A DNA stretch of 64,000 nucleotides from positions 23,257-87,256 of the forward strand of contig CAMIYC010000011.1 of assembly GCA_946402905.1 (NCBI GenBank), in the 5' to 3' direction. Both the position numbers and the translations under genes were made by a program. This stretch comes from an uncultured Prevotellaceae bacterium (GTDB taxonomy: Bacteria > Bacteroidota > Bacteroidia > Bacteroidales > Bacteroidaceae). Position 1 is the stretch's first letter. Every line of letters starts with the position of its first letter. The notes below the pieces were generated by a model. The model was not told the origin of the DNA and did no database searches. It saw nothing but the letters and a program-made list of their open reading frames with translations. Positions 37,183-52,431 of this stretch are shown piece after piece.

Positions 37183-40008
37183 TTATTTCTTCGGTGCCCT
37201 GGCCAGTTTATAGGCACAGCTGAGCATGATGTAGCGGGGGATACAGTTGGTCCATGTCTCAGTCCTGCCTTGGGCGTTCACGTTATATCGCTTGTTGGAG
37301 AGCTGGTGCAGCAGGTCGAATGCCGTGATTTTCAGCGTCATCTTCTCTTTACAGAGCGTGCGTGAGAGTTCGGCGTTCCACACCAGGTCGTCGGTGTTCA
37401 TCATGCTGCTGTCGTATCCGCGGCGGCTGAACATCTTGATGTCGGTGCCCAGTGAGACTTTCACCCATGGAATGAAATACATCAGGCGCGCACCATAGTT
37501 GTAGTCGAAAGCGCTGATGCGCTCGAAGTCCGTGCGGTCGCTGGTGGCACTGCGCCAGCTCACCTCCCCCGACACCGAGGCGGTCAGCTTGTCTTTCTGA
37601 TATTCCAGTTCAAGCTTCTCGTGCAGCATCCAGTTGTTCACCGTGCTCTTGGCGGCTCCCTTGGTGTCGCTCTCAGCACGGATATACTGGATGGGGAAAT
37701 CTACCGAGTGGGTGTAGTCTGCGTCGGCACGCTGTTTGAGCGTCAGCCGTTTCTTATGGTCGATGGGCTGCTGATAACTGCTGCCCACGGCCCACTGCCA
37801 GTTGCCGTTGATGTTGTCGTTCTCGTAGGTGTAGGCACCGGTCGTGCTGTTGTAGGTGGTGCGGGTGCCCCATGAGCGTTGGGTCAGGTTGCCGTTGGTC
37901 CAGATGCTGGCATATCGTTTCGTGCTGTCGTTGTTGAAAACGAAAGAGAGGGCCGCCGAGTGTGTGATGCGTGATTTCAGACGTGGATTGTTCACCCAGG
38001 TGGCCAGCGTACTGGTGGTGTTGAGGTGGGGCATTAGCGACGAAAATCCCGGCTCACTCATGTTCATGGTGTAGTAGGCATATTGCAATCCTTTCTTCAC
38101 TCCCCATCGATAGAGGTAGATGCGGGGTGAGAAGGTGTTATAGTGCCGGTGGGCCATCGTGTCGAGAGGCAGGGCGGTGTAGTGCATGCGCTCGCGGTGG
38201 TGGCTGAAGGGCAGGGTCAGCTCCATATATCCGTTGTCGTTGGAGCGTTGTATGCTCAGACCGCCTGCGTAGGAGCGGGCCAGCTGACTCTCGCTGCTGC
38301 TGTTGGATGCGTCGAGGGCTTGTGCCATCAGGTCACGGCTGCTGGGCAGCCATCCAATCTCGTGGCGGTCCTCAGCGGCGCTTTCCAGCCAGTCCAGGCG
38401 GTAGTGGTCGTTGTGGCTGCCGTTCCATGTCTGTGTATAGCCGACAAACGGCTCCAGTCTCCAGTCGTGGAGCATTTGTAGGGAATACCTACCTTCGATG
38501 CTGTAATTGTAACCGCGCTGCCGCGTGTCGGTATAGTTGTTGCGCAGGTCGTTGGCTCCGCCTTGCGCAAAGTAGGTGTCGTCCAGAGAGAAATTGTCGC
38601 TGGGCTTCATCTGGTTGTAGCCGTAAGAGCAGGAGAGGGAGATATTGTCGCCCCAGTCAAATTTCTTGTAGGTCACGAGATGCCCCGAAAGGTTGAGGCT
38701 GCGGTAGTGGTTCAGGCCGCTGCTGAGCGTGCGGTTGATGATGCGCTCGCGCCAGGTGGAGTCCTGGCTGTGGGTGTTGCGGTCGCCGTTGCTGTAGTTC
38801 AGGGTCACATAGCCGTACATCGTTATGGGCTTCTTGGCGGTGAACTGGTTGCTCATGCTGAGGCTGAAGTCTTTCTGGCGGCTCCACGACTCGGTGCCGC
38901 CGAGGATGTTTCCGTCGGAGGAAAAACGCTCGGTCGAGTGGCGGGTCCAGTCGTCGGCGTCGTTCCAGCCGATGGTGGCGTCAAGCTCCTCTTCCCAGTT
39001 TTTGTCCTGGTCTTCCGTGCTGATGTGGATGCCCGCTTGTTTGGTGGCTCTCAGACCCTGTGGCATGTCCGAGGGGCGCCATTCTCCCTCACTGCCGGGC
39101 TTGCGGTTCTCGTTGATGTTGTTGGTGTTGCCGAAGACGGAGATGCGTGAGTGGTCACTGTAGTACAGGCCGAAGAGGCGGGCCATGTAGCGGTCGTCGG
39201 TGCCTGCGCCGGCTTCGACGTTGCCCATGTAGCCCCTGTTGTATTCGCGCTTGAGCTGTACGTCCATCACATAGTCTTTCTTCTCCACGTCATGCCCGGC
39301 CAGCTCGCTCTGCTTGGTCGTCTTGTTGTACACTTTGATGTCGCGCACGGTGAAGTAGGGCAGGTTGTCGAGCATCACTTTGTTCTGACCCTTGAAGAAG
39401 TCCTTGCCGTTGAGGGTCAGATAGTCCACTTTCTTGCCGTTGATGTAGATGTCGCCGTTGTCTTTCAGCTCCGCGCCGGGCATCTGCCGGATCAGGCCGT
39501 CGAGCATCGAGCCTTCGGGCAGGTTGAAGGCCGAGGCGTTGTATACAATGGTGTCGCCACGGTAGGCGATTTTCACACGCGTGCCCGTCACCGTCACGCC
39601 CTCCAGGTCGTTCTCGCGCCAGATGTCGTCTTGCTTTTTCTTCATCAGCAGGCGGGGCAACTCAAAATACGAGTTGCGCGCGATATGGCGGAGTGGATAG
39701 TTCATGTAGGTGTCTTCGTAGCCGTCGGCGGTGGCTTTGATGATGAAGTCGGTAGGTTGGGCTGCCACTTTGAAACTATAATACGACGACGTGCCCCAGG
39801 TCATGCATGTCGTGGTATCTACCGTCGTCGAGTCTGTGTGCATCAGTGTCATGAAGGCCTTGATCTTGGCTTTCGTAAAAGAGTCGTATACCTCTCCGTA
39901 TAGGTCTATCTTACGCTCTTTCTTCTTCGTGGCTGTCGTGTCGTTTTGTGCCTTGGCAGGGATAAGTGTCAATAGGCAAATCCCAATCAGCCATATTCGG
40001 ATGTTCAT
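37183..40008 (-). CDS. Outer-membrane beta-barrel (TonB-dependent-receptor-like) protein with carboxypeptidase-regulatory-like N-terminus
   Basis: MNIRIWLIGICLLTLIPAKAQ signal peptide, YGEVYDSFTKAKIKAFMTL, plug-like LPEGSMLDGLIRQMPGAELKDNGDIYINGKKVDYLTLNGKDFFKG. Confidence 0.82.
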   Translation of the reverse strand: MNIRIWLIGICLLTLIPAKAQNDTTATKKKERKIDLYGEVYDSFTKAKIKAFMTLMHTDSTTVDTTTCMTWGTSSYYSFKVAAQPTDFIIKATADGYEDTYMNYPLRHIARNSYFELPRLLMKKKQDDIWRENDLEGVTVTGTRVKIAYRGDTIVYNASAFNLPEGSMLDGLIRQMPGAELKDNGDIYINGKKVDYLTLNGKDFFKGQNKVMLDNLPYFTVRDIKVYNKTTKQSELAGHDVEKKDYVMDVQLKREYNRGYMGNVEAGAGTDDRYMARLFGLYYSDHSRISVFGNTNNINENRKPGSEGEWRPSDMPQGLRATKQAGIHISTEDQDKNWEEELDATIGWNDADDWTRHSTERFSSDGNILGGTESWSRQKDFSLSMSNQFTAKKPITMYGYVTLNYSNGDRNTHSQDSTWRERIINRTLSSGLNHYRSLNLSGHLVTYKKFDWGDNISLSCSYGYNQMKPSDNFSLDDTYFAQGGANDLRNNYTDTRQRGYNYSIEGRYSLQMLHDWRLEPFVGYTQTWNGSHNDHYRLDWLESAAEDRHEIGWLPSSRDLMAQALDASNSSSESQLARSYAGGLSIQRSNDNGYMELTLPFSHHRERMHYTALPLDTMAHRHYNTFSPRIYLYRWGVKKGLQYAYYTMNMSEPGFSSLMPHLNTTSTLATWVNNPRLKSRITHSAALSFVFNNDSTKRYASIWTNGNLTQRSWGTRTTYNSTTGAYTYENDNINGNWQWAVGSSYQQPIDHKKRLTLKQRADADYTHSVDFPIQYIRAESDTKGAAKSTVNNWMLHEKLELEYQKDKLTASVSGEVSWRSATSDRTDFERISAFDYNYGARLMYFIPWVKVSLGTDIKMFSRRGYDSSMMNTDDLVWNAELSRTLCKEKMTLKITAFDLLHQLSNKRYNVNAQGRTETWTNCIPRYIMLSCAYKLARAPKK

Positions 40009-40108
40009 GTCAGTGAATGATGTCTTTCTGATTGGCGTTTTTAACCGGATAGATATAGTCGTTGGACTTATATCAAGGAGTGGGTAGCTGTTTAGAATAG
40101 ATGGAATT

Positions 40109-41686
40109 CTATATTTCCTCCAAGATCTTACCATACTTGTCATACCAAGTGCCGTCTGCAGGATTGCCGTTTTTGAAAGTGCCTTTGAAAAATTCACCCG
40201 TTTCCTTTACATAGTAGGTACCCTCGCTGAAATAGTTGTTTTTAAACGAACCAACGAAAATGTCACCATTGTCGAATGTGAAGGAGCCGTCTTTGCCGTC
40301 TAAGTTACCATTTTTGAATAGTCCTTCATAGTAGTTGCCATTTTTGAAAGAAGCCATACCTTTACCTTGAGGTATCTGATCCTCATTGACTTCACCCGTA
40401 TAAGTGAAATCACCAAGAGCGTTGTGGAAGGGCATGGCTGAAACGTCTACTCTAAACGAGTCGACTACTTCCGCTACAGAGTCGACGACAGCCTCAATAG
40501 TGTCAGTTGTAACAGTTGTTTCCGAATTGCCAATATGGCTAATATAGGCGGCAGTTATCATAATTATTACAAAAAGGAGAGATCCTAAGACTGTAAAAAT
40601 CATTTTCTTCTTCCACAGAGGTTTGCTCGTTTTATTTTGTGAATGAAAACCGGTGCCCTGAGAATTTTCAATCTTAGTCTTTTTCTCAAAAGAATGAACC
40701 TCTTTTTGGGGGTCTTTCCCAAACACCAAAGTATGATCATCTTCCTCTTCAGCCTCTCTAATTATAGGCGTTGCTGTTACAACATCACTTTTTTTCATCA
40801 TTTTACTAACATCCTCCACAGATTGTGGCCTCTCAAATCGGTTTGTCTTCATCAGCCACAGGATAAGATGTCTTGTTGATTGCGACACATTGGCAGGTAG
40901 AGGCAGAGCGAGATGTTTGTCCACTGAGCGATCATCGTCGATATCCGAAGGCAGAGGTGGCCTCTGGTTGGCTAACAGGTTGTAGAGGGTAGCCCCAAGA
41001 GCATATAAATCTGTCCATGGCCCAAATTTCTCAAGATTTTGCTCCATTTGCTCGCGTGGCGCAAAACCATTGGTGAAACTCACTGCTGTGGATGTGGTAG
41101 CCCCACCTCTGTTATCTCGTTGTTTGCTGGCTCCAAAATCAATGAGAGTGACATTCCCCTGCCTGTCTACCATGATGTTTGCTGGTTTCAAGTCAAGATG
41201 CCACAGCCCTTCATTATGAACACATTTCAAAGCGTCAAGTATTTGTGGCAGATATACTTTCACTTCTTTCTCACTGAGTGCTCGCTGTATACGTCGGAGC
41301 CTGACGGAGAGGTTCTCGCCATCAATATAGTCCATCACGTAATATGCTGTGCCGTTTTCCTCAAAGAGGTCATGTACCGACACAATATGCGAATTCCTTA
41401 ACCTACGTAGTCGCCGTGCCTCTTTCTTGAACTTTTGCATTTGTCCTTGAAAGAAGACTTCGTTCTCTGCATTGCTCACGCTCACCGTGGTGTTGTTGGC
41501 ATTACGCTGAGTCACCCCTTTGATGAAAAACTCCTTGATGGCCACCACCTCATCAAATTCTACATTGGTAGCTACATAGGTATTGCCGAAGCCACCAGAA
41601 GAGAGGTAACGTTCGATACGATAAACACCATGAAGGATGGCGCCAACTTTAAGCATAGAGCTTTGATTGATACTATGTTCGCTCAT
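40109..41686 (-). CDS. Serine/threonine protein kinase with TM segment and C-terminal MORN repeats
   Basis: LSSGGFGNTYVA, VAIKEFF, HLDLKPANIMV, LIDFGAS; TM TVLGSLLFVIIMITAAYI; GNYYEGLFKNGNLDG, GDIFVGSFKNN, GEFFKGTFKNG. Confidence 0.92.
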   Translation of the reverse strand: MSEHSINQSSMLKVGAILHGVYRIERYLSSGGFGNTYVATNVEFDEVVAIKEFFIKGVTQRNANNTTVSVSNAENEVFFQGQMQKFKKEARRLRRLRNSHIVSVHDLFEENGTAYYVMDYIDGENLSVRLRRIQRALSEKEVKVYLPQILDALKCVHNEGLWHLDLKPANIMVDRQGNVTLIDFGASKQRDNRGGATTSTAVSFTNGFAPREQMEQNLEKFGPWTDLYALGATLYNLLANQRPPLPSDIDDDRSVDKHLALPLPANVSQSTRHLILWLMKTNRFERPQSVEDVSKMMKKSDVVTATPIIREAEEEDDHTLVFGKDPQKEVHSFEKKTKIENSQGTGFHSQNKTSKPLWKKKMIFTVLGSLLFVIIMITAAYISHIGNSETTVTTDTIEAVVDSVAEVVDSFRVDVSAMPFHNALGDFTYTGEVNEDQIPQGKGMASFKNGNYYEGLFKNGNLDGKDGSFTFDNGDIFVGSFKNNYFSEGTYYVKETGEFFKGTFKNGNPADGTWYDKYGKILEEI

Positions 41687-42735
41687 CGTCTAATCGGTTT
41701 AATTTCAATGCTCTGTTGTGTTGAGTCTTGCTGTTTAGCTTCATTTTCGCCCTTATTCAAGCTCATCCAAAAAATGATGGCAAATGCTGTTAAAGCAAGC
41801 GGAATCAGCCAAATCCATTGGCGACCACCTTTGGTGATCGGAGGAATGACGGCAGATTGATGCTCAGGTATATTTGATCGGATGTCCATTTCCACAGCAT
41901 CTACCACCTTGGGTCGGATATTGAGCAAGTTGCAGCGCGATATACCTTCATCGTCAATAATCATCTCGCTCTTATCTCTCATCACTTTCTTAATGTGTAT
42001 CAGTTGTGCAGAGTGGTTGTCGTTATTATGGGCAGTTGCTTCTATAAGCTGTAGCTTCTTGTCTTCATCACTGACCTTATCGTAAAGGATGTCTATCAAC
42101 TGCCTGTCATCCATCTGCTCCATCATCCCGTCACTGCACATATACAAATAATCACCTGCTCGTAGGTCTCCGATATGCACAATGTCTGGTTTCACACGAT
42201 TGTCCTTACCAGGCTGTATCGCCTTTGTGATAATGTTCTTCTGAGGCGATGTGCGCATCTCTTCGTATGAGATTTCTCCCGCTTGGTATAAATCAGCCAC
42301 CAATGAGTGGTCACGGCTTCGATAGAGCAATTGGCGTTCGGATGTCCGAATATGATAGATTCGGCTATCACCAATATGGGCGGCTACACATCCACCTTTG
42401 TGAAATACCACCAATGCAAGTGTGGTGCCCATTTTTTTGTTAGAATCGTCGTCCAAGACATCGAGAGACCTAAAAGCTACTTCAATGGTATCAAGAATGA
42501 ACGAGTCACTTACTCTGTCATCAGCAGGCCAATGGTTCTTCATATAAGTAGAGATTGCTCGGCACACGGTTTGGCTGGCTAACTCCCCATTTTCGTGCCC
42601 CCCCATTCCGTCGCAAAGAATGAACACCCTGTCATCCGTAGTGGCTTTTCCCATGGCAGGATATATCGTGTCTTCCTGTTTGTCGCGATTTCCTATTTCA
42701 TATATGCCTTGTGGCAACTCTATCTTGATTTCCAT
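41683..42735 (-). CDS. PP2C-family Ser/Thr phosphatase with C-terminal TM
   Basis: NRDKQEDTI, LCDGMGGHENGELAS, AHIGDSRIYHIR, YMCSDGMMEQM; 4-nt overlap with the kinase. Confidence 0.92.
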   Translation of the reverse strand: MEIKIELPQGIYEIGNRDKQEDTIYPAMGKATTDDRVFILCDGMGGHENGELASQTVCRAISTYMKNHWPADDRVSDSFILDTIEVAFRSLDVLDDDSNKKMGTTLALVVFHKGGCVAAHIGDSRIYHIRTSERQLLYRSRDHSLVADLYQAGEISYEEMRTSPQKNIITKAIQPGKDNRVKPDIVHIGDLRAGDYLYMCSDGMMEQMDDRQLIDILYDKVSDEDKKLQLIEATAHNNDNHSAQLIHIKKVMRDKSEMIIDDEGISRCNLLNIRPKVVDAVEMDIRSNIPEHQSAVIPPITKGGRQWIWLIPLALTAFAIIFWMSLNKGENEAKQQDSTQQSIEIKPIRR

Positions 42736-42736
42736 A

Positions 42737-43267
42737 TCATTCTTTCTTAAGAGTCATTTTCGTCAGTCCCATGGTTATTATATCGCCGTTTTCAAGCATC
42801 ACTTCATCATTGTTAAGCAAAGTCAAAGAACGTATTTTTATGGGATTGGGATTTTTGTAGTTGGCTATGGTGACCAACAAATGACCATCTGTTTTCTTCA
42901 CCTTGACGATGGCGTTTTGTCGACTGATATAACGGTCAGTCACTTCAAGCTGGACATCTGCCGACGATTGATTTGACTTGCGCCCAACAATGTTAATCCC
43001 TTCTTGCAATTCATATCTTCTACCCTCGCAAACAATGAAGACTTTGTCCGCCTTATTGGCTAATCCAGCTATCTCTGTATCATTACCATCGCCATATCCA
43101 GGGATAAACGTGTCTGCATCCATCATCTCTTTGCCTTGCTGTTGAAATCTTACCCTCAACCCCATGCCACACTGGGGGCAATTAATGATTTTCACCTCCT
43201 CGTTTTGGGAGTTTCTCACTTCGAGCACCACGCCACACGACGGGCATTTCACTGTCTTGGTTTGCAT
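42737..43267 (-). CDS. Zn-ribbon plus FHA domain protein
   Basis: CPSCGVVLE..NCPQCGMGLRV, INIVGRKSNQSSADVQLEVTDRYISRQNAIV. Confidence 0.85.
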   Translation of the reverse strand: MQTKTVKCPSCGVVLEVRNSQNEEVKIINCPQCGMGLRVRFQQQGKEMMDADTFIPGYGDGNDTEIAGLANKADKVFIVCEGRRYELQEGINIVGRKSNQSSADVQLEVTDRYISRQNAIVKVKKTDGHLLVTIANYKNPNPIKIRSLTLLNNDEVMLENGDIITMGLTKMTLKKE

Positions 43268-43277
43268 CTTTTTTTAT

Positions 43278-44138
43278 TTATAAAAAAACAGAACCATCGT
43301 CTATGTAATCCGGCATATCTGTTGCGGCATCAGGATCCCCCATTCCTGCTTGATATTCATCCTCTACAAGTGATACAGGTGGATTGCCTTCCGCGATATC
43401 GCCGATGGTGGTAGCCATTCCTTCACGGAATACAACCACGTCAGGATCCGTGAGTGATTGCGAATCGTCTACGTCGATAATCACAACATCAGCTTGGTCA
43501 TTTCCAGTCATGTCAAGGGCGATAGCATTGTGCCCTTGCACTGTTCCTTGTCCCACGAGATGAACATCTTCATCCTCTGTAGGATATGTGTCGTTGGCAA
43601 TCTCGGAGCTTTGCCTATCAGTATGGGGTTGTACGTCGGGCTTGTTAACCTCCCAGGCTTCCACGACTACCTCTGGATGTGCCTCGTTGATCATGCTGAC
43701 TTCAACATGTTCCGGAGCCACTGGGGCATGCACGGATTGTGCATAATCCATTTTCTGGACATCACTCATTGCATCCCATTCAGTTTCATAGTAGGTGCCA
43801 TAGATTCCACCATGCCAAGCAAACACTCCGCCAGGACCGACTTGTGCCCGTGCAGCGGCGAAAGCCTCATCGAACGACATCCCATTATCTACATGAGCCA
43901 TAGGGGCATCACTATAGACAGGGACATTACCCTTTTCATTAGTATCCGTAATGGCGTTTTCACTCATGCCTTCTTCGTGGCGACTTTCATTGAAATGATT
44001 GACAGCATGCATTCCCATCGCACCGAGTAAAATGCCTGTAGTCGAGCCGAAAGTTACTTTCTTCCAAAGATTGCCATTGCCTTTCTGTTGCCCTACGTTT
44101 GAGGACTTGCTGAATTGTAAGGTGTTTTCGTCATTCAT
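43278..44138 (-). CDS. Hypothetical acidic protein with one hydrophobic segment
   Basis: Intact ORF in tight operon spacing; VTFGSTTGILLGAMGMHAVNHF segment, then FDEAFAAARAQVGPGGVFAWHGGIYGTYYETEWDAMS. Confidence 0.7.
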   Translation of the reverse strand: MNDENTLQFSKSSNVGQQKGNGNLWKKVTFGSTTGILLGAMGMHAVNHFNESRHEEGMSENAITDTNEKGNVPVYSDAPMAHVDNGMSFDEAFAAARAQVGPGGVFAWHGGIYGTYYETEWDAMSDVQKMDYAQSVHAPVAPEHVEVSMINEAHPEVVVEAWEVNKPDVQPHTDRQSSEIANDTYPTEDEDVHLVGQGTVQGHNAIALDMTGNDQADVVIIDVDDSQSLTDPDVVVFREGMATTIGDIAEGNPPVSLVEDEYQAGMGDPDAATDMPDYIDDGSVFL

Positions 44139-44272
44139 AATTGTGATTCTTAATTTTACAAACTTTTAAGGCAAAGTTAGCTCAATTTATAGTTTTTTTC
44201 CTTTCTTCTAAGGACATTTTCCATGAAATAGTGGAGTTTGATGATGAAATACCTTTTTTTCGTGAAAAAATG

Positions 44273-44965
44273 TCATTTTTTCAATTTGGATTTACATTTA
44301 GGACAACTATCCAAGTTTTTAGTCAAAATGGCGTAATCGGTAAATCCGAAGAAATACCCACATTCCGGACATGGACAACTGTAATCCTTGATGAAACGAT
44401 ACTTGATAGTCTTCAAGTAGTCGTCATCCTTCCGGATATCCTTCCATGTCTTTAATACAAAGAAAATGGTGAGAACGATGATTAGTGCATAGGCGAGAAT
44501 GAATGTTAAACCTCTTCCACCTGAAAAGTAGCTTATGAGAACACCACTCATCGTGATGGCGGGCGTAATACCTCTGATGGCTTGGAATCGTTGTTTTCTC
44601 TGTGTTACCGCTTTGGTGTCTCTGTTGTATGTTTCCCAAACGTCCTTTAAGGGGCGAATGTCGACTTCTTTGGGCATAAATTTGTCTATCACTTCCCATT
44701 TTAGTAGATAGTGGTTGCCACCGAGTTCCACTTTGTCACCGTGCGTCACGATTTTGCTCATCACCGCTACACCGTTGACATACGTTTTGTTTTGAGGATT
44801 GAGGTTATTGATGCGCATCGTTCCGTCATCCTCTATCATTAGCTTACAGTGTTGTCGGCTGATACTCTTTGGTACTGTGCTAAGCGAACTGACTATATGT
44901 GGGGTGTTGTCAACCATCACATAAAGCCAAGAAGTTGTTGCATCACGTCCTATAATGATTTCCAT
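44273..44965 (-). CDS. FHA domain, two TMs and C-terminal Zn-ribbon protein
   Basis: IIGRDA..SISRQHCKLMIEDDGTMRINNLNPQNKTYVNGV; TM pair; CPCPECGYFFGFTDYAILTKNLDSCPKCKSKLKK. Confidence 0.85.
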   Translation of the reverse strand: MEIIIGRDATTSWLYVMVDNTPHIVSSLSTVPKSISRQHCKLMIEDDGTMRINNLNPQNKTYVNGVAVMSKIVTHGDKVELGGNHYLLKWEVIDKFMPKEVDIRPLKDVWETYNRDTKAVTQRKQRFQAIRGITPAITMSGVLISYFSGGRGLTFILAYALIIVLTIFFVLKTWKDIRKDDDYLKTIKYRFIKDYSCPCPECGYFFGFTDYAILTKNLDSCPKCKSKLKK

Positions 44966-44977
44966 ATCCTTGCGTTT

Positions 44978-45337
44978 TTATTCTTTTGAATATGTCATAA
45001 ATTCCTTAACACTTTTGACAGCTGCCTTTGATATGGGCAGCTGATAGGCAAAGAGTGAAAAGTCGGATAGGATCACACATTGTTTGGCGAGGCTTACTTC
45101 GTAAATGTATTTCCGATTGATGATGAATCGTTTACCCACCCTCATGAATATGGTCGCTTGTTCTTTCATTTGGACGGCAAGGGCATTCTCCACTTGCCCA
45201 AGACTGAGTGCCACCAAAGCCTTTAGTTTGTTGGCCATAACTACTTTCGTATAATTGCCATCCGCCTCAAAATACACAATCTTATTGATTTCGAATCGAA
45301 GCAGCCGGTCGCGGGAGTTAATGATGATGTAGTTCAT
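44978..45337 (-). CDS. Stand-alone LytTR DNA-binding domain protein
   Basis: IVYFEADGNYTKVVMANK, FMRVGKRFIINRKYI. Confidence 0.85.
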   Translation of the reverse strand: MNYIIINSRDRLLRFEINKIVYFEADGNYTKVVMANKLKALVALSLGQVENALAVQMKEQATIFMRVGKRFIINRKYIYEVSLAKQCVILSDFSLFAYQLPISKAAVKSVKEFMTYSKE

Positions 45338-45681
45338 ATGTCAGTTTTTAAGCTAACCTAAAATATGTTTGGCTGTAAAGTCCATAACAGTGTAGCATCT
45401 GATACACTTTGCAAAAATAGGAAAAAAGTAGAAAAAACAATGCTTCTTTTTAGAATAGTTCTAAAAAATAATGTATAATTCAATAATTATTATTATCGCC
45501 ACATCGAGATTGACGGCATGAAGATGGTTGCGTTCAATAATTCTCATACTATGGCCTGTTTTTGTGGCAGCTTTGGTATCAAGGCCTCTACCATTCTTCC
45601 CAATTATATCAGCAAGGCTGGCTGTCCGAAGCGTTTCTGATATTTCGCGTAAGAGGAAATGAGAAAAAATTTGATTTCTTT

Positions 45682-45713
45682 TTTGCAATATCCATTCTAA
45701 AGTATTACCTTTG
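45682..45713 (+). promoter_or_regulatory. Bacteroidetes-type promoter (TTTG, 20 bp, TACCTTTG) for the lectin/FSMP-like gene
   Basis: TTTG ending 45685, TACCTTTG at 45706-45713. Confidence 0.65.
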
Positions 45714-45770
45714 CTAGAAGAATGACCTCAAAGTCATGTCTCTCATTTCAATAATCAAATCATCCATTCC

Positions 45771-46547
45771 ATGAATATGAAAAGACTGATCATCTTCCTC
45801 GCCTATTTGCTCATGACGACGACTGTCCCGGCGCAGGATCACCACGTCCGCCGGCAGCCGAAGTCTGTGCAGCAGACAAAAACGAAGCCTGTCGCCAAGC
45901 CTCAATCAAAGCCAGTCACCAAACCCTCATCCCGACCAGTTTCGAAAGCCAGGTCGTCTCAACCATCAAATGTGCCCCTCTGTCCCGACAACCACCATCC
46001 TCACATGATTGATCTTGGCCTTCCCTCTGGCACAAAGTGGGCCTGCTGCAACGTCGGAGCCGACAAACCAGAAGCCTATGGCGGTTATTACGCTTGGGGT
46101 GAGACCGAGACGAAATACGAATATAGTTGGAAAACTTACAAATATTGTGACGGAACATCTAACTGTAAGAGCCTTGGATGGGATATCGCTGATACGAGTT
46201 ACGACGTTGCTCATGTGAAATGGGGCGATAGATGGGTGCTACCGTTACATGATCAACAGGAAGAATTGATGAATAATTGCACTTGTAAATGGATGACCAT
46301 GAATGGTGTCGCGGGAGAAAAGTTCACCAGTAAGAGGAACGGTGCGAGCATCTTCTTGCCTGCAGCGGGCTATCGTGACGATTCCGGCCTCGACTATGTC
46401 GGCTCTTACGGATTTTACTGGTCGTCGACGCAGAATCCGTCATACTCGCACTACGCCTACTACTTGGACTTCAATTCGGCCAACGTGGACTGGTACGGAA
46501 TCAGCTGCTACCTTGGTCAGAGCGTACGCCCCGTCTCCAGTAATTAA
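45771..46547 (+). CDS. Secreted protein with Fibrobacter-succinogenes-major-paralogous/C-type-lectin-like domain
   Basis: Signal peptide; HMIDLGLPSGTKWACCNVGADKPEAYGGYYAWGET; FLPAAGYRDDSGLDYVGSYGFYWSST...YLGQSVRPV. Confidence 0.85.
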   Translation: MNMKRLIIFLAYLLMTTTVPAQDHHVRRQPKSVQQTKTKPVAKPQSKPVTKPSSRPVSKARSSQPSNVPLCPDNHHPHMIDLGLPSGTKWACCNVGADKPEAYGGYYAWGETETKYEYSWKTYKYCDGTSNCKSLGWDIADTSYDVAHVKWGDRWVLPLHDQQEELMNNCTCKWMTMNGVAGEKFTSKRNGASIFLPAAGYRDDSGLDYVGSYGFYWSSTQNPSYSHYAYYLDFNSANVDWYGISCYLGQSVRPVSSN

Positions 46548-46595
46548 TGCTTTTTTCCAGCCAATCCCCTATCATGTAGTATGCCCTAAGCCCAC

Positions 46596-48455
46596 TTAGT
46601 TATTATTGATAAACATGCTGGTAAAACCTACTCCCAATAAAAATATCCATAATATGATATAGAATAGAAACAATTTCAAAGTTCTTAACTTGATTTGTTG
46701 AAATTTTGAATCATATATTTGAAAAGCATACTCTTTTGTCGTCCAAATGTTTGTGTCAGAATTATAGATCAACTGTCTATTTCTTTTCCAATATAAAAAA
46801 ATAAAATAACCAACACACATTCCTCCAAGTTCAATGACGGTAACTATCGAGTTTCCTAATGCAGAGATAAATAATAATAATATTATTAATGGAGCTAACC
46901 ACTTTATTTTGAAATTCCAAATTTTTTCTTTAGGGAACGACAGTAAGAAAGCTAGTATTATAGCATAGATTGCCCCAGATGCTCCTACGGTGGTCCATGA
47001 GTTGAGTGTATTGGCCAGCGAGATGTCGTGCATGGCCTGTCTAAAGGGAGTGAAGAAACCGATATCAGGCAATTGTCCTGACATGATATAGAAAAGGGAG
47101 CAGTATTGAAATATTTCTTGGATGACTCCTGCCCCCACACTGCACAAAATGTAATAAAAAAGGAATTTTTTGGGTCCCCATACTCTCTCTACTATGCACC
47201 CGAACATCCACAGTGCGAACATATTGAAGAAAAGATGATCCCATCCACCATGCATGAACATGTAGGTAAACAACTGATACAACTTGAAATCGGAAGCCAG
47301 GAAAAAATGCAATCCGAAAATATCGTTCAGGTCGATGCCTCTCATTATGAGCACATAATATGTCAGAAAAGCCAGAATATTTATTATCATCAGAATCTTA
47401 GTAATGCTAAATAAGCGCCTCTTACTAGATGCAACTTCTTTTTGGGAATCATGTGTATTTTGTTCCTGATCCTGTACATTAAAAATTTGAGTTTTTTCAT
47501 ATATCTCTTCATTCTCAAAATCGTTACTGTCACTCTCCTCGGGGCTGCATTTTGCAAAAAGAAGATTTTGTTGCTCTATAAGTGCATGAATGTTTTGTGG
47601 TCTGTCCATCCTATCAGTCTTCATCAACCAAAGAATGAGTTTCTTCATCTCATAACTGACAAAAGACATCGGCAAAGCAATGTGCTTGTCTGCTGAGCGG
47701 TCATCGTCGATATCAGATGGTAACGGCGGTTTTTTGTTCGTCAATAGATTATAAATGGTCGCGCCGAGCGCATAAATATCAGTCCATGGCCCGAACTTCT
47801 CTAAGTTCTGCTCCATCTGTTCGCGTGGAGCAAAACCATTGGTGTAACCAACTGATGTGGAGGTGGTTGCGCCTCCAGTTGCACTGCGCTGTTTGCTTGC
47901 GCCGAAGTCGATGAGCGTGATATTCCCCTGTCTGTCGACCATAATATTGGCGGGCTTCAAGTCAAGGTGCCATAGATTCTCTTGGTGCACACATGCCAAT
48001 GCATCAAGTATCTGGGGCAAGTATTTCATCACCTCTTTCTCAGAAAACGGTTTTCGTAAACGTTTCAACTTATCTGACAGGTTCTCACCATCAATATAGT
48101 CCATCACATAATATGCCGTGCCATTCTCCTCAAAAAGGTCGTGAACTCGAACGATATGCTCATTCTTTAGTTTGCGAAGCCGTCGTGCCTCTTTTTTGAA
48201 TTTCTGCAATTGTTCATTAAAGAGGTCCTTGTTCTCAATGTTACTAACACTCACGGTGGTATTGTTGGCATCGCGTTGTGTCACTCCACGGATGAAAAAC
48301 TCTTTGATGGCCACTACCTCATCAAACTCGATATTTGTGGCTAAATATGTGTTGCCAAAACCACCCGAAGAGAGATAGCTATCTATGCGGTATACATTCC
48401 TCAAGATACATCCTACAGGAAGCATAACTCCTCTATTTACATGATGTTCGTTCAT
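46596..48455 (-). CDS. Serine/threonine protein kinase fused to a rhomboid-like integral membrane domain
   Basis: N-terminal kinase (VAIKEFF, HLDLKPANIMV, LIDFGAS); C-terminal LFTYMFMHGGWDHLFFNMFALWMFG and VGASGAIYAIILAF; TM6-equivalent reads VTVIELGGMCVGYF. Confidence 0.9.
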   Translation of the reverse strand: MNEHHVNRGVMLPVGCILRNVYRIDSYLSSGGFGNTYLATNIEFDEVVAIKEFFIRGVTQRDANNTTVSVSNIENKDLFNEQLQKFKKEARRLRKLKNEHIVRVHDLFEENGTAYYVMDYIDGENLSDKLKRLRKPFSEKEVMKYLPQILDALACVHQENLWHLDLKPANIMVDRQGNITLIDFGASKQRSATGGATTSTSVGYTNGFAPREQMEQNLEKFGPWTDIYALGATIYNLLTNKKPPLPSDIDDDRSADKHIALPMSFVSYEMKKLILWLMKTDRMDRPQNIHALIEQQNLLFAKCSPEESDSNDFENEEIYEKTQIFNVQDQEQNTHDSQKEVASSKRRLFSITKILMIINILAFLTYYVLIMRGIDLNDIFGLHFFLASDFKLYQLFTYMFMHGGWDHLFFNMFALWMFGCIVERVWGPKKFLFYYILCSVGAGVIQEIFQYCSLFYIMSGQLPDIGFFTPFRQAMHDISLANTLNSWTTVGASGAIYAIILAFLLSFPKEKIWNFKIKWLAPLIILLLFISALGNSIVTVIELGGMCVGYFIFLYWKRNRQLIYNSDTNIWTTKEYAFQIYDSKFQQIKLRTLKLFLFYIILWIFLLGVGFTSMFINNN

Positions 48456-48570
48456 ACAAGTTTCTTGATTTAGTATTTCCTATGTGAATTCTGCTGAAAG
48501 GTCATCATTTTGGGGCCAGTCTTTTTTGTATAACGCACCATCTTACTTTATTTGTTGGAAATTAAATAAT

Positions 48571-49008
48571 TTACTCTGATAAAACGACTTTAAGAGTGGT
48601 GGCACCAGAAGTGGCAGAACCTCTCCATTCCTTAGATGATGTGCGAGATAACGACAAATACAACGTTCGACCTGGGTCATACAACTCAATAGAACCGTTA
48701 GAATGATACGTTCCTACAATTTCCAGACTTACTTTTTGACTGATGTTTTTATAAACACCATTAATACCACCATCGTTTTCAATCTGTATAGAGAATTCAA
48801 CAGGCCATGAATGTTTGTTGTTGTAAAATGAACCTTTCAGAAGATGATGATTTGTTAAAATATTTTTTCTTGGCATACTATTCTTTTCAGCATTCGTTCT
48901 TGTTTGAGAAGATGCGGCATTTCGCCTGACAGTGTGGGTCTGAGCAGACATATCAAGACTTGTCAATATCATCACAAAGAAGAGCGTAACGAATAATATT
49001 GGTCTCAT
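48571..49008 (-). CDS. Small secreted hypothetical protein
   Basis: Signal peptide MRPILFVTLFFVMILTSLDMSAQ; upstream of and collinear with the kinase-rhomboid gene. Confidence 0.65.
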   Translation of the reverse strand: MRPILFVTLFFVMILTSLDMSAQTHTVRRNAASSQTRTNAEKNSMPRKNILTNHHLLKGSFYNNKHSWPVEFSIQIENDGGINGVYKNISQKVSLEIVGTYHSNGSIELYDPGRTLYLSLSRTSSKEWRGSATSGATTLKVVLSE

Positions 49009-49372
49009 GGATTGTTAAGTCGTATTATAGATGAAAATGTAATTGTTTTAGCCTGAATAATTCATATAAAATGAAAAATGTGAGGTTTTTTAACGCTAAC
49101 CATTTGGTAATCAGAGATAAATGTTAATTTGCGGTGTCAAATAAACTTGCAAGTACAAAAATAGTCAATTTTCAGTTTGCTTCCAAGAAAAATCAGAAAA
49201 ATTTCACTCTTCAGCCATAATAATATTCAGTATTGAGGCATTAATCGGTGCTGTGAGTCTTTCCTTGCATAGCGGCCTGCTGTTGCTTCGGCAGGAGGAG
49301 CACCTGGCCCTTGCCTCCCAGTTTTCTGCTTCATACACGACACCCACACTCCCTATAAGGTCCGCCACATTC

Positions 49373-49480
49373 TCATTGAGATTCTCTCAAAAGGTCCTTG
49401 AACTCGTTCAACTCGGCTTCGGATTGTATGGTGTTCAGTGCGTTCATCAGTTCCAGTTGTGCCATTTCAGCGCAACTCAT
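49373..49480 (-). pseudogene. 35-aa ORF MSCAEMAQLELMNALNTIQSEAELNEFKDLLRESQ, probable truncated remnant of a short antitoxin-like family
   Basis: Resembles the N-terminus of a recurrent Prevotella/Bacteroides small-protein family; TATCTTTG -7 motif upstream on the minus strand. Confidence 0.35.
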
Positions 49481-49695
49481 AATTATATCGTTTAATATCC
49501 GTGACAAAGATACAAAAAGTTTTGCAATCATGTGTCGTTTCGCAACAAAATATAATAGGATGCTGGCAGGTGTTATCGTATCAGCGCCTGCCAAGGATGT
49601 CCTACTGTGATACATCACAAAAACTATTTGAGACATACCACATGAAGCATCTTGTCTTTTTTATGTATTTTTGCACAAACAATAATAATACATTA

Positions 49696-52431
49696 ATGAT
49701 GAAGCATTTTTTACGCATGACTGTGGGAGCTGCCGTGGGCATGATGCTCCCGTTCCTCTCCTTAAAGGCACAGAATCCCTTTGTGCAGACCTGGTACACG
49801 AGTGACCCGGCACCGATGGTGCACGACGGCACCATGTATGTCTATACCGGTCATGACGAGGATGGTGCCGACTTCTTCTGGATGCAGGAGTGGCGCGTCT
49901 ATTCCACCACCGATATGGTCAACTGGACCGACCATGGATCGCCCTTGGCGCTGGAGAACTTCTCCTGGGCCGACGACAGAGCATGGGCGAGCCAGTGCAT
50001 CGAGCGCGACGGCCAATTCTTCTGGTACGTCTGCGCCCACTCACGGTTGTCGAAAGGCATGGCCATCGGCGTGGCAGTAAGCGACTCACCAACAGGACCT
50101 TTTCGCGACGCCATCGGCAAGCCGCTCTTCGAGAATGGCAGCTGGGATCATATCGACCCCACCGTCTTCATCGACGACGACGGACAGGCGTGGCTGATGT
50201 GGGGCAATCCGCGTGTCTATTACCTCAAGCTCAATCGCGACATGGCCTCTTATGAGGGCGAGGTGGGCATGCTGCCCATGACCGAGGAGGCCTTCGGAGG
50301 CCCGGTGATGAGCGAGCGCGAGCAGGGCAAGGACTACAAGGACAGTTATGTCGAGGGACCGTGGCTTACCAAGCGCGGCGGGCAGTATCAGCTGCTCTAT
50401 GCAGCGGGTGGTGTGCCCGAACATATATCTTACAGCACGGCACCTGCCCCCACCGGCCCATGGCGTTATGCCGGTCCCATCATGCCGCTCTGTGACACCG
50501 GGTCATTCACCAACCATTGTGGCGTTGCCGACTACAAAGGTCACAGCTACTTCTTCTACCATACAGGTAAGTTGCCGGGTGGGGGAGGATTCGGCAGAAG
50601 CGTGGCGGTAGAGGAATTCAAGTACAACAGCGACGGCTCTTTCCCCACCATCATGCCCACCGACCAGGGCGTGCAGCCCGTGGGTACGCTCTGCCCCTAC
50701 CGCCGTGTAGAGGCCGAGACCATGGCTTTCTCCAAAGGGGTGAAGACCGAGCAAAACGCTGAGACGGGTGTATATGTCTCCGACATCCACAACGGCGACT
50801 ATATCAAGCTCCAGGCCGTCGACTTCTCGCAGCGCATACCTCGCACCTTCACAGCCCGCGTGGCCAGTGCTCTGCGGGGCGGAATCATTGAGGTGCGTAT
50901 CGATAGTCTGGCCGGACAACAGCTGGTGCGCCTGCAGGTGCCCGGCACCGATGGCTGGGAGCAGTGGCAGACCCTCACTGCCGACCTCACCGCCTACACC
51001 ACCGGCGTGCACGATCTCTATCTCGTGTTCACTGGCAGGAAGGGACCCAAGTTGTTCAATCTCGACTGGTGGGAGATGCGAGGCTTGGAGCAGTGCAACA
51101 TGCCGCTCTTCCAGACCAAATACACCGCCGACCCTTCACCTCTGGTGGTGGGCGACACCTTATTTTTATATACTTCTCACGACGCGTCGCCTGAGGATAT
51201 TCCCGATCCCAATGAGAAAAGCTCCGCGGGATTCTTCATGTATGACTGGCTCCTGTGGTCGACTACCGATATGGTCAACTGGACGGAGCACGGCGCCGTG
51301 GCATCGCTCAAAGACTTCTCCTGGCGCAGCCGTGAGAATGGGGGATGGGCCATACAGTGTGTGGAGCGTAATGGCAAGTACTATCTCTACGCACCACTCC
51401 ATGGCCATGGCATCGGCGTGCTCGTGGCCGACTCCCCCTACGGACCTTTCAAAGATCCGTTGGGCAAGCCGCTGGTGTGGCAGAAGGAGCACTGGGATGA
51501 CATCGACCCCACGGTATACACCGACGACGACGGACAGGCTTACATGTACTGGGGCAACCCCAATACTTACTATGCCCTTCTCAACGACGACATGATCTCG
51601 CTCAAGAGCGACATCGTGAAGCTCGACTATCATATTGACCACTATCAGGAAGGTCCGTGGTTCTATAAACGTAATGGCAAGTATTATCTGGGTTATGCCA
51701 CCACCTGCTGTCCCGAGGCGTTAGGCTATGCGATGAGCGACAGTCCCACCGGGCCGTGGAAGAGCCAGGGGTATATCATGCGGCCCACCGAGCGCGACCG
51801 TGGCAACCATCCCGGCATCGTCGACTACAAGGGACATTCCTATATCTTCGGACAGAACTACGACCTCATGCACCTCGACACCTTCGTACACCACGAGCGA
51901 CGCTCCGTGTCGGCCACCGAGATGACCTACCTGCCCGACGGCACCATCGCTGAAGTGCCCTACTGGCTCGACCAGGAGCCGATACGACAGTTGCACGCTC
52001 TCAATCCCTATCGGCGGGTCGAGGCTGAAACCATGGCTTGGGGCAAGGGACTGAAGTCGGCCAAGATGGGCATACCCAATACGGGGGTTGTGGCCGATAT
52101 GCCGTATTCCACGGGCCGTCGCAATATGTATGTCACTGATATCGACGATGGCGAGTACATCCGCCTGCGCGGTGTCGACTTCGGCGACAGCGGAGCCAAG
52201 AAATTCCTGTTGTGTGCTGCTGCCGAAGGCTCCTGCGTGGTGACACTTCGTCTTGACGCCGTCGACGGTCCTGCCGTCGGTATGATGACCATCAGCCCCA
52301 CTGGTTCGGTGGAGAAATACAAACTCCTCTCAGCCAAGGTCAACCAGGCGCAGGGCGTGCACGATTTGTATCTTTGCTTTGACCGGTCGAAGGGAGACGT
52401 GCGGCTTGACTACTGGATGTTTAAGAAATAA
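49696..52431 (+). CDS. Tandem GH43-CBM6-GH43-CBM6 protein
   Basis: Two GH43 modules (QTWYTSDPAPMVHDGTMYVYTGHDE; QTKYTADPSPLVVGDTLFLYTSHD), each followed by RRVEAETMA..-type CBM6. Confidence 0.87.
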   Translation: MMKHFLRMTVGAAVGMMLPFLSLKAQNPFVQTWYTSDPAPMVHDGTMYVYTGHDEDGADFFWMQEWRVYSTTDMVNWTDHGSPLALENFSWADDRAWASQCIERDGQFFWYVCAHSRLSKGMAIGVAVSDSPTGPFRDAIGKPLFENGSWDHIDPTVFIDDDGQAWLMWGNPRVYYLKLNRDMASYEGEVGMLPMTEEAFGGPVMSEREQGKDYKDSYVEGPWLTKRGGQYQLLYAAGGVPEHISYSTAPAPTGPWRYAGPIMPLCDTGSFTNHCGVADYKGHSYFFYHTGKLPGGGGFGRSVAVEEFKYNSDGSFPTIMPTDQGVQPVGTLCPYRRVEAETMAFSKGVKTEQNAETGVYVSDIHNGDYIKLQAVDFSQRIPRTFTARVASALRGGIIEVRIDSLAGQQLVRLQVPGTDGWEQWQTLTADLTAYTTGVHDLYLVFTGRKGPKLFNLDWWEMRGLEQCNMPLFQTKYTADPSPLVVGDTLFLYTSHDASPEDIPDPNEKSSAGFFMYDWLLWSTTDMVNWTEHGAVASLKDFSWRSRENGGWAIQCVERNGKYYLYAPLHGHGIGVLVADSPYGPFKDPLGKPLVWQKEHWDDIDPTVYTDDDGQAYMYWGNPNTYYALLNDDMISLKSDIVKLDYHIDHYQEGPWFYKRNGKYYLGYATTCCPEALGYAMSDSPTGPWKSQGYIMRPTERDRGNHPGIVDYKGHSYIFGQNYDLMHLDTFVHHERRSVSATEMTYLPDGTIAEVPYWLDQEPIRQLHALNPYRRVEAETMAWGKGLKSAKMGIPNTGVVADMPYSTGRRNMYVTDIDDGEYIRLRGVDFGDSGAKKFLLCAAAEGSCVVTLRLDAVDGPAVGMMTISPTGSVEKYKLLSAKVNQAQGVHDLYLCFDRSKGDVRLDYWMFKK

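Follow-up and report, generated by a model that had tools for sequence, protein, structure and literature searches.

The gene cluster and its products

The 64,000-nucleotide (nt) stretch of contig CAMIYC010000011.1 that was analysed here, referred to as the window, comes from an uncultured Prevotellaceae bacterium and carries at positions 40109-45337 a group of genes that we read as one copy of a serine/threonine phospho-signalling cassette of Bacteroidota. According to the list of open reading frames (ORFs) of the window, six minus-strand genes are tightly spaced in the order LytTR-FHA1-ACID-ZnFHA-PP2C-kinase. Their products are as follows:

44978..45337, minus strand: LytTR, a stand-alone DNA-binding protein of 119 amino acids (aa) without a receiver domain (Pfam LytTR, E 3.5e-12)
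44273..44965, minus strand: FHA1, with a cytosolic FHA domain, two transmembrane (TM) helices and a C-terminal Cys4 Zn ribbon (Pfam FHA, E 1.1e-10)
43278..44138, minus strand: ACID, with a Thr-bearing N-terminal tail, a Gly-zipper TM helix, a small β-α-β-β-α domain (~79-138) and an Asp-rich, EF-hand-like C-terminus (alignments A1 and A2)
42737..43267, minus strand: ZnFHA, a soluble protein with a Cys4 Zn ribbon, a Thr-rich linker and then an FHA domain (Pfam FHA, 23.4 bits, cut-off 20.7)
41683..42735, minus strand: PP2C, a Ser/Thr phosphatase with a C-terminal TM helix (PP2C_2, E 2.2e-13)
40109..41686, minus strand: KinMORN, a Hanks-type kinase (HLDLKPAN, DFG) followed by a linker, a TM helix and C-terminal MORN-like repeats (Pkinase, E 1.1e-37)

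An earlier reading, made from the sequence alone (the sequence-only reading), had described six packed minus-strand genes with these domains; all of the ORFs are present and Pfam agrees. Most of the spacing that it gave is also correct: the kinase and PP2C genes overlap by 4 nt, gaps of 10 nt and 12 nt separate ZnFHA from ACID and FHA1 from LytTR, respectively, and the ACID/FHA1 gap, put at ~130 nt, measures 134 nt, but the PP2C/ZnFHA gap is 1 nt and not 2. The membrane-linked parts that it proposed agree with hydropathy, by which TM helices are predicted at residues 142-158 and 161-177 of FHA1 and 308-324 of PP2C, with a single one at 362-378 of KinMORN. In FHA1, the motif CPxC...CPKC marks the Zn ribbon, and the GR, SxxH and N motifs are readable in the FHA domain. 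The PP2C carries DGMGG and GDSR motifs and resembles the Stp1 structure 2pk0 (E 1.8e-29). By these motifs and Pfam matches the genes belong to the general Hanks-type kinase/PP2C/FHA module, with kinase and PP2C predicted to be competent.

Conservation across Bacteroidota

A lack of conserved synteny had been named by the sequence-only reading as the observation that would speak against it. The gene set and its order were found to be kept in 81 loci, in five distant Bacteroidia lineages and on a Runella plasmid, and the gene set is, by sequence comparison, conserved in gut and environmental Bacteroidota. Relatives were located through ACID, and neighbourhoods were annotated with hidden Markov models (HMMs) built from the window genes. 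A search with the single sequence found ACID relatives in 10 of 151 genomes of the family, and a profile search in 41 of 400, some of them via the Asp-rich half alone; across the phylum 7 of 398 genomes gave a match, one of which proved false when inspected. A match in genome G390 (L146) was discarded as false. A scan of named genomes yielded 204 ACID relatives, from which 78 loci were kept, in Bacteroides, Prevotella/Segatella, Muribaculaceae, Alistipes, Odoribacter, Parabacteroides and others.

The order across relatives is LytTR, FHA1, variable genes, ACID, caspase, ZnFHA, PP2C and kinases. In the 81 distinct loci, from Bacteroidales, where the search design guarantees ACID but none of the other genes, PP2C follows ZnFHA in 62/71 cases, ZnFHA follows the caspase in 45/56 and FHA1 follows LytTR in 40/43, and ACID is followed by the caspase in 46/84 and by ZnFHA in 21/84. 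Six loci from five further Bacteroidia lineages have ACID beside both FHA genes (6/6), and most of them are adjoined by PP2C and kinase genes. The independent annotation of a Runella rosea plasmid lists vWA, FHA, a hypothetical protein (which corresponds to ACID), FHA, PP2C and caspase in succession (DR864_RS28255-28280). The window copy fits the same definition, with ACID flanked by FHA1 and ZnFHA, then PP2C. Another sequence, MT838606.1 (L153), is labelled 'Bacteriophage sp.' and was considered as a phage homologue; it was set aside, since it encodes LytTR-FHA1-ACID-ZnFHA-PP2C, is Segatella-like and is apparently a mislabelled bacterial contig.

The caspase and the genome's second cassette

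A gene for a predicted-secreted caspase is present in 56 of the 81 loci, with its usual place between ACID and ZnFHA. The catalytic SGHG motif is found in 58 of 60 caspases, and an N-terminal hydrophobic stretch, sought with a loose pattern, also in 58 of 60. In a distant Bacteroidia genome (L142:7371-8936), PP2C, a TM helix and the caspase are fused in one ORF. This helix between PP2C and caspase, together with the hydrophobic N-terminus, suggests that the caspase would be a periplasmic protease.

The genome of the window holds a second cassette on another contig (C48), composed of LytTR, FHA1, three secreted proteins, ACID, ZnFHA, PP2C and a kinase-MORN gene, and the one Pfam caspase of the genome lies directly upstream of its LytTR. 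The three secreted proteins between FHA1 and ACID (L019:10189-13270) are kept, with 69-88% identity, in G801, the genome of a sister species that carries the C48 cassette in the same surroundings. A PP2C tree places the C48 copy with that of G801 (100/99) and the window copy outside the pair; several of its starred clades contain a mixture of families, as is expected under transfer. Based on the tree and on the surroundings shared with G801, the genome apparently has one older, caspase-bearing copy on C48 and one acquired copy without caspase in the window, and the caspase of the second copy may serve the window copy in trans.

Catalytic motifs, kinase tails and a shared threonine motif

Catalytic motifs are well kept: DG[MVI]GG and GDSR in 77/77 PP2C relatives and DFG in 138/149 kinases. 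The tails of the kinases are highly diverse. An HMM of the KinMORN tail matched 26 kinases, and the 59 tails without MORN or FISUMP domains fell into 49 dissimilar groups, among which FGE-sulfatase, PEGA, Sel1, WG, TonB_C, FHA and GH26-like domains occur. Such tails may be read as changeable sensors. No TM helix was found by a simple scan in 33 of 137 kinases, and therefore not all of them need be receptors.

In 100 distinct ACID N-terminal tails there are 112 matches to the pattern [DEN][DEANKSQ]Tx[YFVILM], against 10.2 +/- 3.0 in shuffled sequences. Of all Thr residues in these tails, 28% fit it; the share is 15% for the linkers of the kinases and 13% for those of ZnFHA, in comparison with 1.7% for the outer part of ACID and for unlabelled neighbouring ORFs; these figures are descriptive, because the pattern was chosen after the sequences had been viewed and the proteins are related. 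The motif does recur in three non-homologous segments, and Ser has no comparable sequence context. The versions in the window are close and not always exact: DENTLQF in ACID, NDTEIAG in ZnFHA, DDHTLVF in KinMORN and YEKTQIF in KinRhom, a second kinase described below. This acidic-Thr-x-hydrophobic motif is likely an FHA ligand. The roles of writer, eraser, reader and transcriptional output that the sequence-only reading had assigned are consistent with the intact catalytic motifs and with the shared Thr motif.

The ACID protein

The helix of ACID is preceded by positive charges and followed by acidic residues, and the protein is predicted to have its N-terminus inside and its outer part outside. 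The small domain was modelled by AlphaFold2 with a pLDDT of ~95. An EF-hand-like loop is present in 59 of 82 ACID proteins, against 0.5 in shuffled sequences. A structure search with the ACID model gave no match in the PDB with E <= 0.001; among viral structures, A0A516LAI5, a small protein from a phage, matched best, at E 0.13 and with 35% identity over 40 columns.

The small domain was also found in 20 viral contigs of IMG/VR (L120-L139). Several of the phage carriers adjoin packaging- or structure-type genes, as judged by gene order and sequence, and PHROGs has no family for ACID or for seven of the phage carriers. A domain of ~35 residues, [D/N]D[ML]SFxxAF...FxWxGxxYxT, is common to the phage proteins and ACID. 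The ACID domain can serve as a marker for finding the system without the common hits that kinases bring.

Transcription units

Two promoter-like elements were located by sequence pattern:

45412..45419, minus strand: TAnnTTTG, a -7-like promoter element before LytTR
44172..44179, minus strand: TAnnTTTG, the Bacteroidetes -7 element, in the FHA1-ACID gap, a probable second promoter

Of 45 loci, 24 have the element in the 250 nt before LytTR (6.2 in shuffles), and of 77 relatives, 40 have it in the 150 nt before ACID (3.9 by shuffling); upstream of PP2C it is found in only 7 of 69 relatives. Because of its recurrence before ACID, the genes probably form two co-regulated units, LytTR-FHA1 and ACID-ZnFHA-PP2C-kinase. 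The compact packing of the genes holds, but the case for a single transcription unit is weakened by the conserved element. A scan for sigma-70 promoters and terminators gave no clear excess over shuffles.

A low-GC island

The six genes belong to a larger feature, which reaches ~49.7 kb and includes a second kinase, a FISUMP protein and a secreted protein on the same island of low GC content:

39953..49767, no strand: low-GC island of ~9.7 kb, with GC 0.41-0.46 against ~0.54-0.59 on its flanks
46596..48455, minus strand: KinRhom, a kinase-rhomboid fusion and the second kinase of the island (Pkinase, E 7.6e-40; Rhomboid, E 4e-21)

In G801 the flanking genes are ~320 nt apart, and the site is therefore empty there; the blastn junction joins window position 39952 to 49768, and the flanks are 77% (outer-membrane protein) and 89% (glycosidase-like gene) identical between the two genomes. 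At the borders of the island neither a flanking tRNA nor a long flanking repeat was found, and Rfam and tRNA scans gave no matches. The island looks mobile.

Over its kinase half, KinRhom shares 64% identity with KinMORN, and over its rhomboid half 75% with a stand-alone rhomboid on another contig (C99) of the same genome; the stand-alone protein is present in some form in all sampled members of the genus. No rhomboid fusion was found among the other loci. KinRhom looks like a recent chimera that arose by domain capture.

Proposed mechanism and alternative explanations

We propose, with a probability of about 0.6, that the cassette is a trans-envelope Ser/Thr phospho-signalling system of Bacteroidota with the following mechanism. 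Receptor-like kinases, each with a cytosolic kinase domain, one TM helix and a fast-changing outer domain (in the window, MORN repeats and a rhomboid fusion), would phosphorylate the Thr of [D/E/N]-x-T-x-[hydrophobic] motifs in the ACID N-terminal tail, in their own linkers and in the linker of ZnFHA. The marked motifs would be bound by FHA1 at the membrane and by the soluble ZnFHA, which would assemble or switch a complex, and the membrane-tethered PP2C would remove the mark. LytTR would set transcription, and ACID may pass the signal outward, via its outer small domain and EF-hand-like loops, to the periplasmic caspase-type protease. The computed results are the gene set and its order, the domains and their predicted topology, the enrichment of the motif and the island with its empty site; the phosphorylation targets, the FHA binding, the signal direction and the caspase as effector we infer from them.

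Several observations weigh against this proposal. Of the 81 loci, 25 lack the caspase gene and 35 lack LytTR, with some of the contigs ending early. In the window copy, where no caspase gene is present and the EF-hand-like loop of ACID is degenerate, the protease step may not apply; the absence of the caspase gene also makes the 'self-contained' circuit envisaged by the sequence-only reading doubtful for this copy. For the topology of ACID the only guides are hydropathy and charge bias, and the window protein falls below the simple TM threshold. The sequences share descent, so that the motif shuffles overstate significance. A LytTR binding motif was not found upstream of LytTR, where k-mer enrichment gave promoter-like sequences only.

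Ser/Thr phospho-signalling in Bacteroidota seems to have been little studied, judging by the literature found. With its changeable kinases, two FHA readers and usual caspase, the cassette offers a concrete route from an outside signal through phosphorylation to a protease, which is open to testing in Segatella copri and other gut species. Should the caspase turn out to be the output, receptor-kinase-to-protease signalling would have a counterpart in bacteria. The fuller version, in which interchangeable TM kinases, phospho-Thr/FHA assembly, a trans-envelope relay and a periplasmic caspase would make up a receptor-kinase-to-caspase pathway, acting as a mobile and polymorphic immunity or controlled-death system, is a tentative extension that we hold to be doubtful.

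An ordinary envelope-sensing or development-type regulator has a real chance of being correct, if short of an even one. Here the kinases would read the envelope or nutrient state and LytTR would adjust a small regulon, with no killing and with the caspase as a processing protease. The tight linkage of LytTR and FHA1 is in line with it, and FISUMP, FGE, WG and TonB_C outer tails suit contact with a ligand or the envelope. A precedent is found in Sulfolobus, where ArnA/ArnB, with the kinase ArnC and the phosphatase PP2A, form a Zn finger-FHA/kinase/phosphatase circuit that controls gene expression (PMC12852372). ArnA, a Zn finger-linker-FHA protein like ZnFHA, binds phospho-Thr in a SIETT motif, which resembles the E-E-T context of the cassette, and the mark is written by the Hanks-type kinase and erased by the phosphatase (PMC12852372); it is equally a precedent for the writing and reading steps of the mechanism proposed above. 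Unlike the cassette, this system is archaeal, has a vWA protein as partner and lacks a membrane relay and a caspase. Patchiness and mobility would, however, be unusual for a housekeeping regulator, and the caspase stays beside ACID and ZnFHA in most loci.

These same features, namely the patchy distribution (the 41 of 400 family genomes, some via the Asp-rich half alone), the island with its empty site, the family-mixing PP2C tree and the plasmid copy, would fit a defence against phages or competitors, or self-destruction, in which the outer kinase domains sense attack and trip the periplasmic caspase or another toxic output under restraint by PP2C. The variable sensors and the occurrence of the ACID small domain in phage contigs, some beside structural or packaging-type genes, point the same way, and caspases are known from conflict systems (PMC7159879, PMC8195603). 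A kinase-phosphatase defence precedent exists in KKP of Pf and other prophages, which likewise combines Ser/Thr kinases, PP2C and FHA in a small cluster, with divergent kinase C-terminal domains and a link to mobile DNA (PMC11341870). KKP kinases, however, bear a cold-shock domain (CSD; PfkA) or a fused FHA (PfkB), and the system has no membrane relay, LytTR, stand-alone FHA pair or caspase, whereas the cassette sensors are trans-membrane. Membership in KKP (PP2C, then two kinases with CSD and FHA) was rejected, as the window kinases have MORN and rhomboid tails and Pfam finds neither CSD nor FHA. Among the defence systems of PADLOC-DB 2.0, the kinases match generic models only (mad6, PD-T4-6; the MADS6 model gives 116 bits against a cut-off of 460), ZnFHA has a weak Zn-ribbon match, and FHA1, ACID, PP2C and LytTR have none. 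Around the window copy no neighbouring defence genes were recognised, and the presence of two copies in the same genome, the C48 copy being a vertical one, is just as compatible with a resident function. Defence is considered rather unlikely.

Far less probable is a derivation from a TerY-P triad, with the cassette as its kinase/PP2C half after loss of the vWA gene. The triad, in general terms vWA, PP2C and kinase-Zn ribbon (PMC7159879), shares the kinase/PP2C pairing and Zn ribbons with the cassette, and the Runella copy has a vWA gene. A complete TerY-P-like triad of vWA, PP2C and kinase-Zn ribbon directly adjoins the cassette at L030:5884-9766; it owns a PP2C and a kinase in addition to the PP2C of the cassette and is thus a neighbour and not the source. 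This is a separate triad and the only one of 89 loci with a labelled vWA. In the window, as the sequence-only reading had stated, no vWA/TerY gene was detected (34-54 kb, single-seed HMM), and membership was rejected. The cassette core lacks vWA and adds two FHA readers, ACID, LytTR and the caspase, and FHA1 and ACID are not parts of TerY-P.

A chance cluster of unrelated signalling genes, for which it could be said that the domain families are individually common, has a negligible probability and is ruled out by synteny, the order being kept in 81 loci and across distant families.

Relation to other known systems

In the type VI secretion system (T6SS), PpkA is the writer and PppA the eraser. 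The PpkA/PppA/Fha threonine phosphorylation pathway is similar to the trans-envelope cassette proposed here in having a membrane kinase, a PP2C and an FHA protein (PMC5995506), but the FHA protein of the cassette has an FHA-2TM-Zn ribbon layout, and ACID and the caspase are not T6SS parts. By eye, no T6SS-like genes were noticed among the window ORFs; no T6SS HMM search of the window or genome was made.

PASTA kinase/Stp pairs (PknB-Stp1) have a Stp1-like PP2C and a single-TM kinase in common with the cassette, whose outer domains are not PASTA. Membership was rejected: NF033483 gives 154 bits against a cut-off of 450, and Pfam finds no PASTA domain. Prokaryotic and conflict-system caspases share the caspase domain, the His-Cys dyad and, often, an N-terminal signal or TM helix (PMC3501461, PMC7159879). 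The caspase of the cassette differs from these as a predicted-secreted, single-domain protease that is tied to FHA/PP2C/kinase genes; the words 'FHA' and 'phosphatase' are absent from PMC3501461. No description of the gene set was found in the open-access full-text literature, subscription papers being outside this coverage, and it is apparently undescribed.

A further locus of the same genus (L152:3326-17940), which is larger and possibly a sister system, combines several FHA proteins with two each of PP2Cs and kinases, a caspase and an ACID-like protein without the small domain.

Other genes of the island

The island holds two further genes:

45771..46547, plus strand: secreted FISUMP/Lcl_C-like protein (Lcl_C, E 0.0025; TIGR02145, E 0.0048; both under the curated cut-offs)
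48571..49008, minus strand: secreted protein of 145 aa with an N-terminal hydrophobic helix and no assigned family, upstream of KinRhom

An HMM made from the FISUMP protein matches kinase tails of relatives, and this domain type is common to many such tails. The 145-aa protein has no significant Pfam or NCBIfam family. A TAnnTTTG element lies near its gene, at 49163-49156, and co-transcription with KinRhom is probable.

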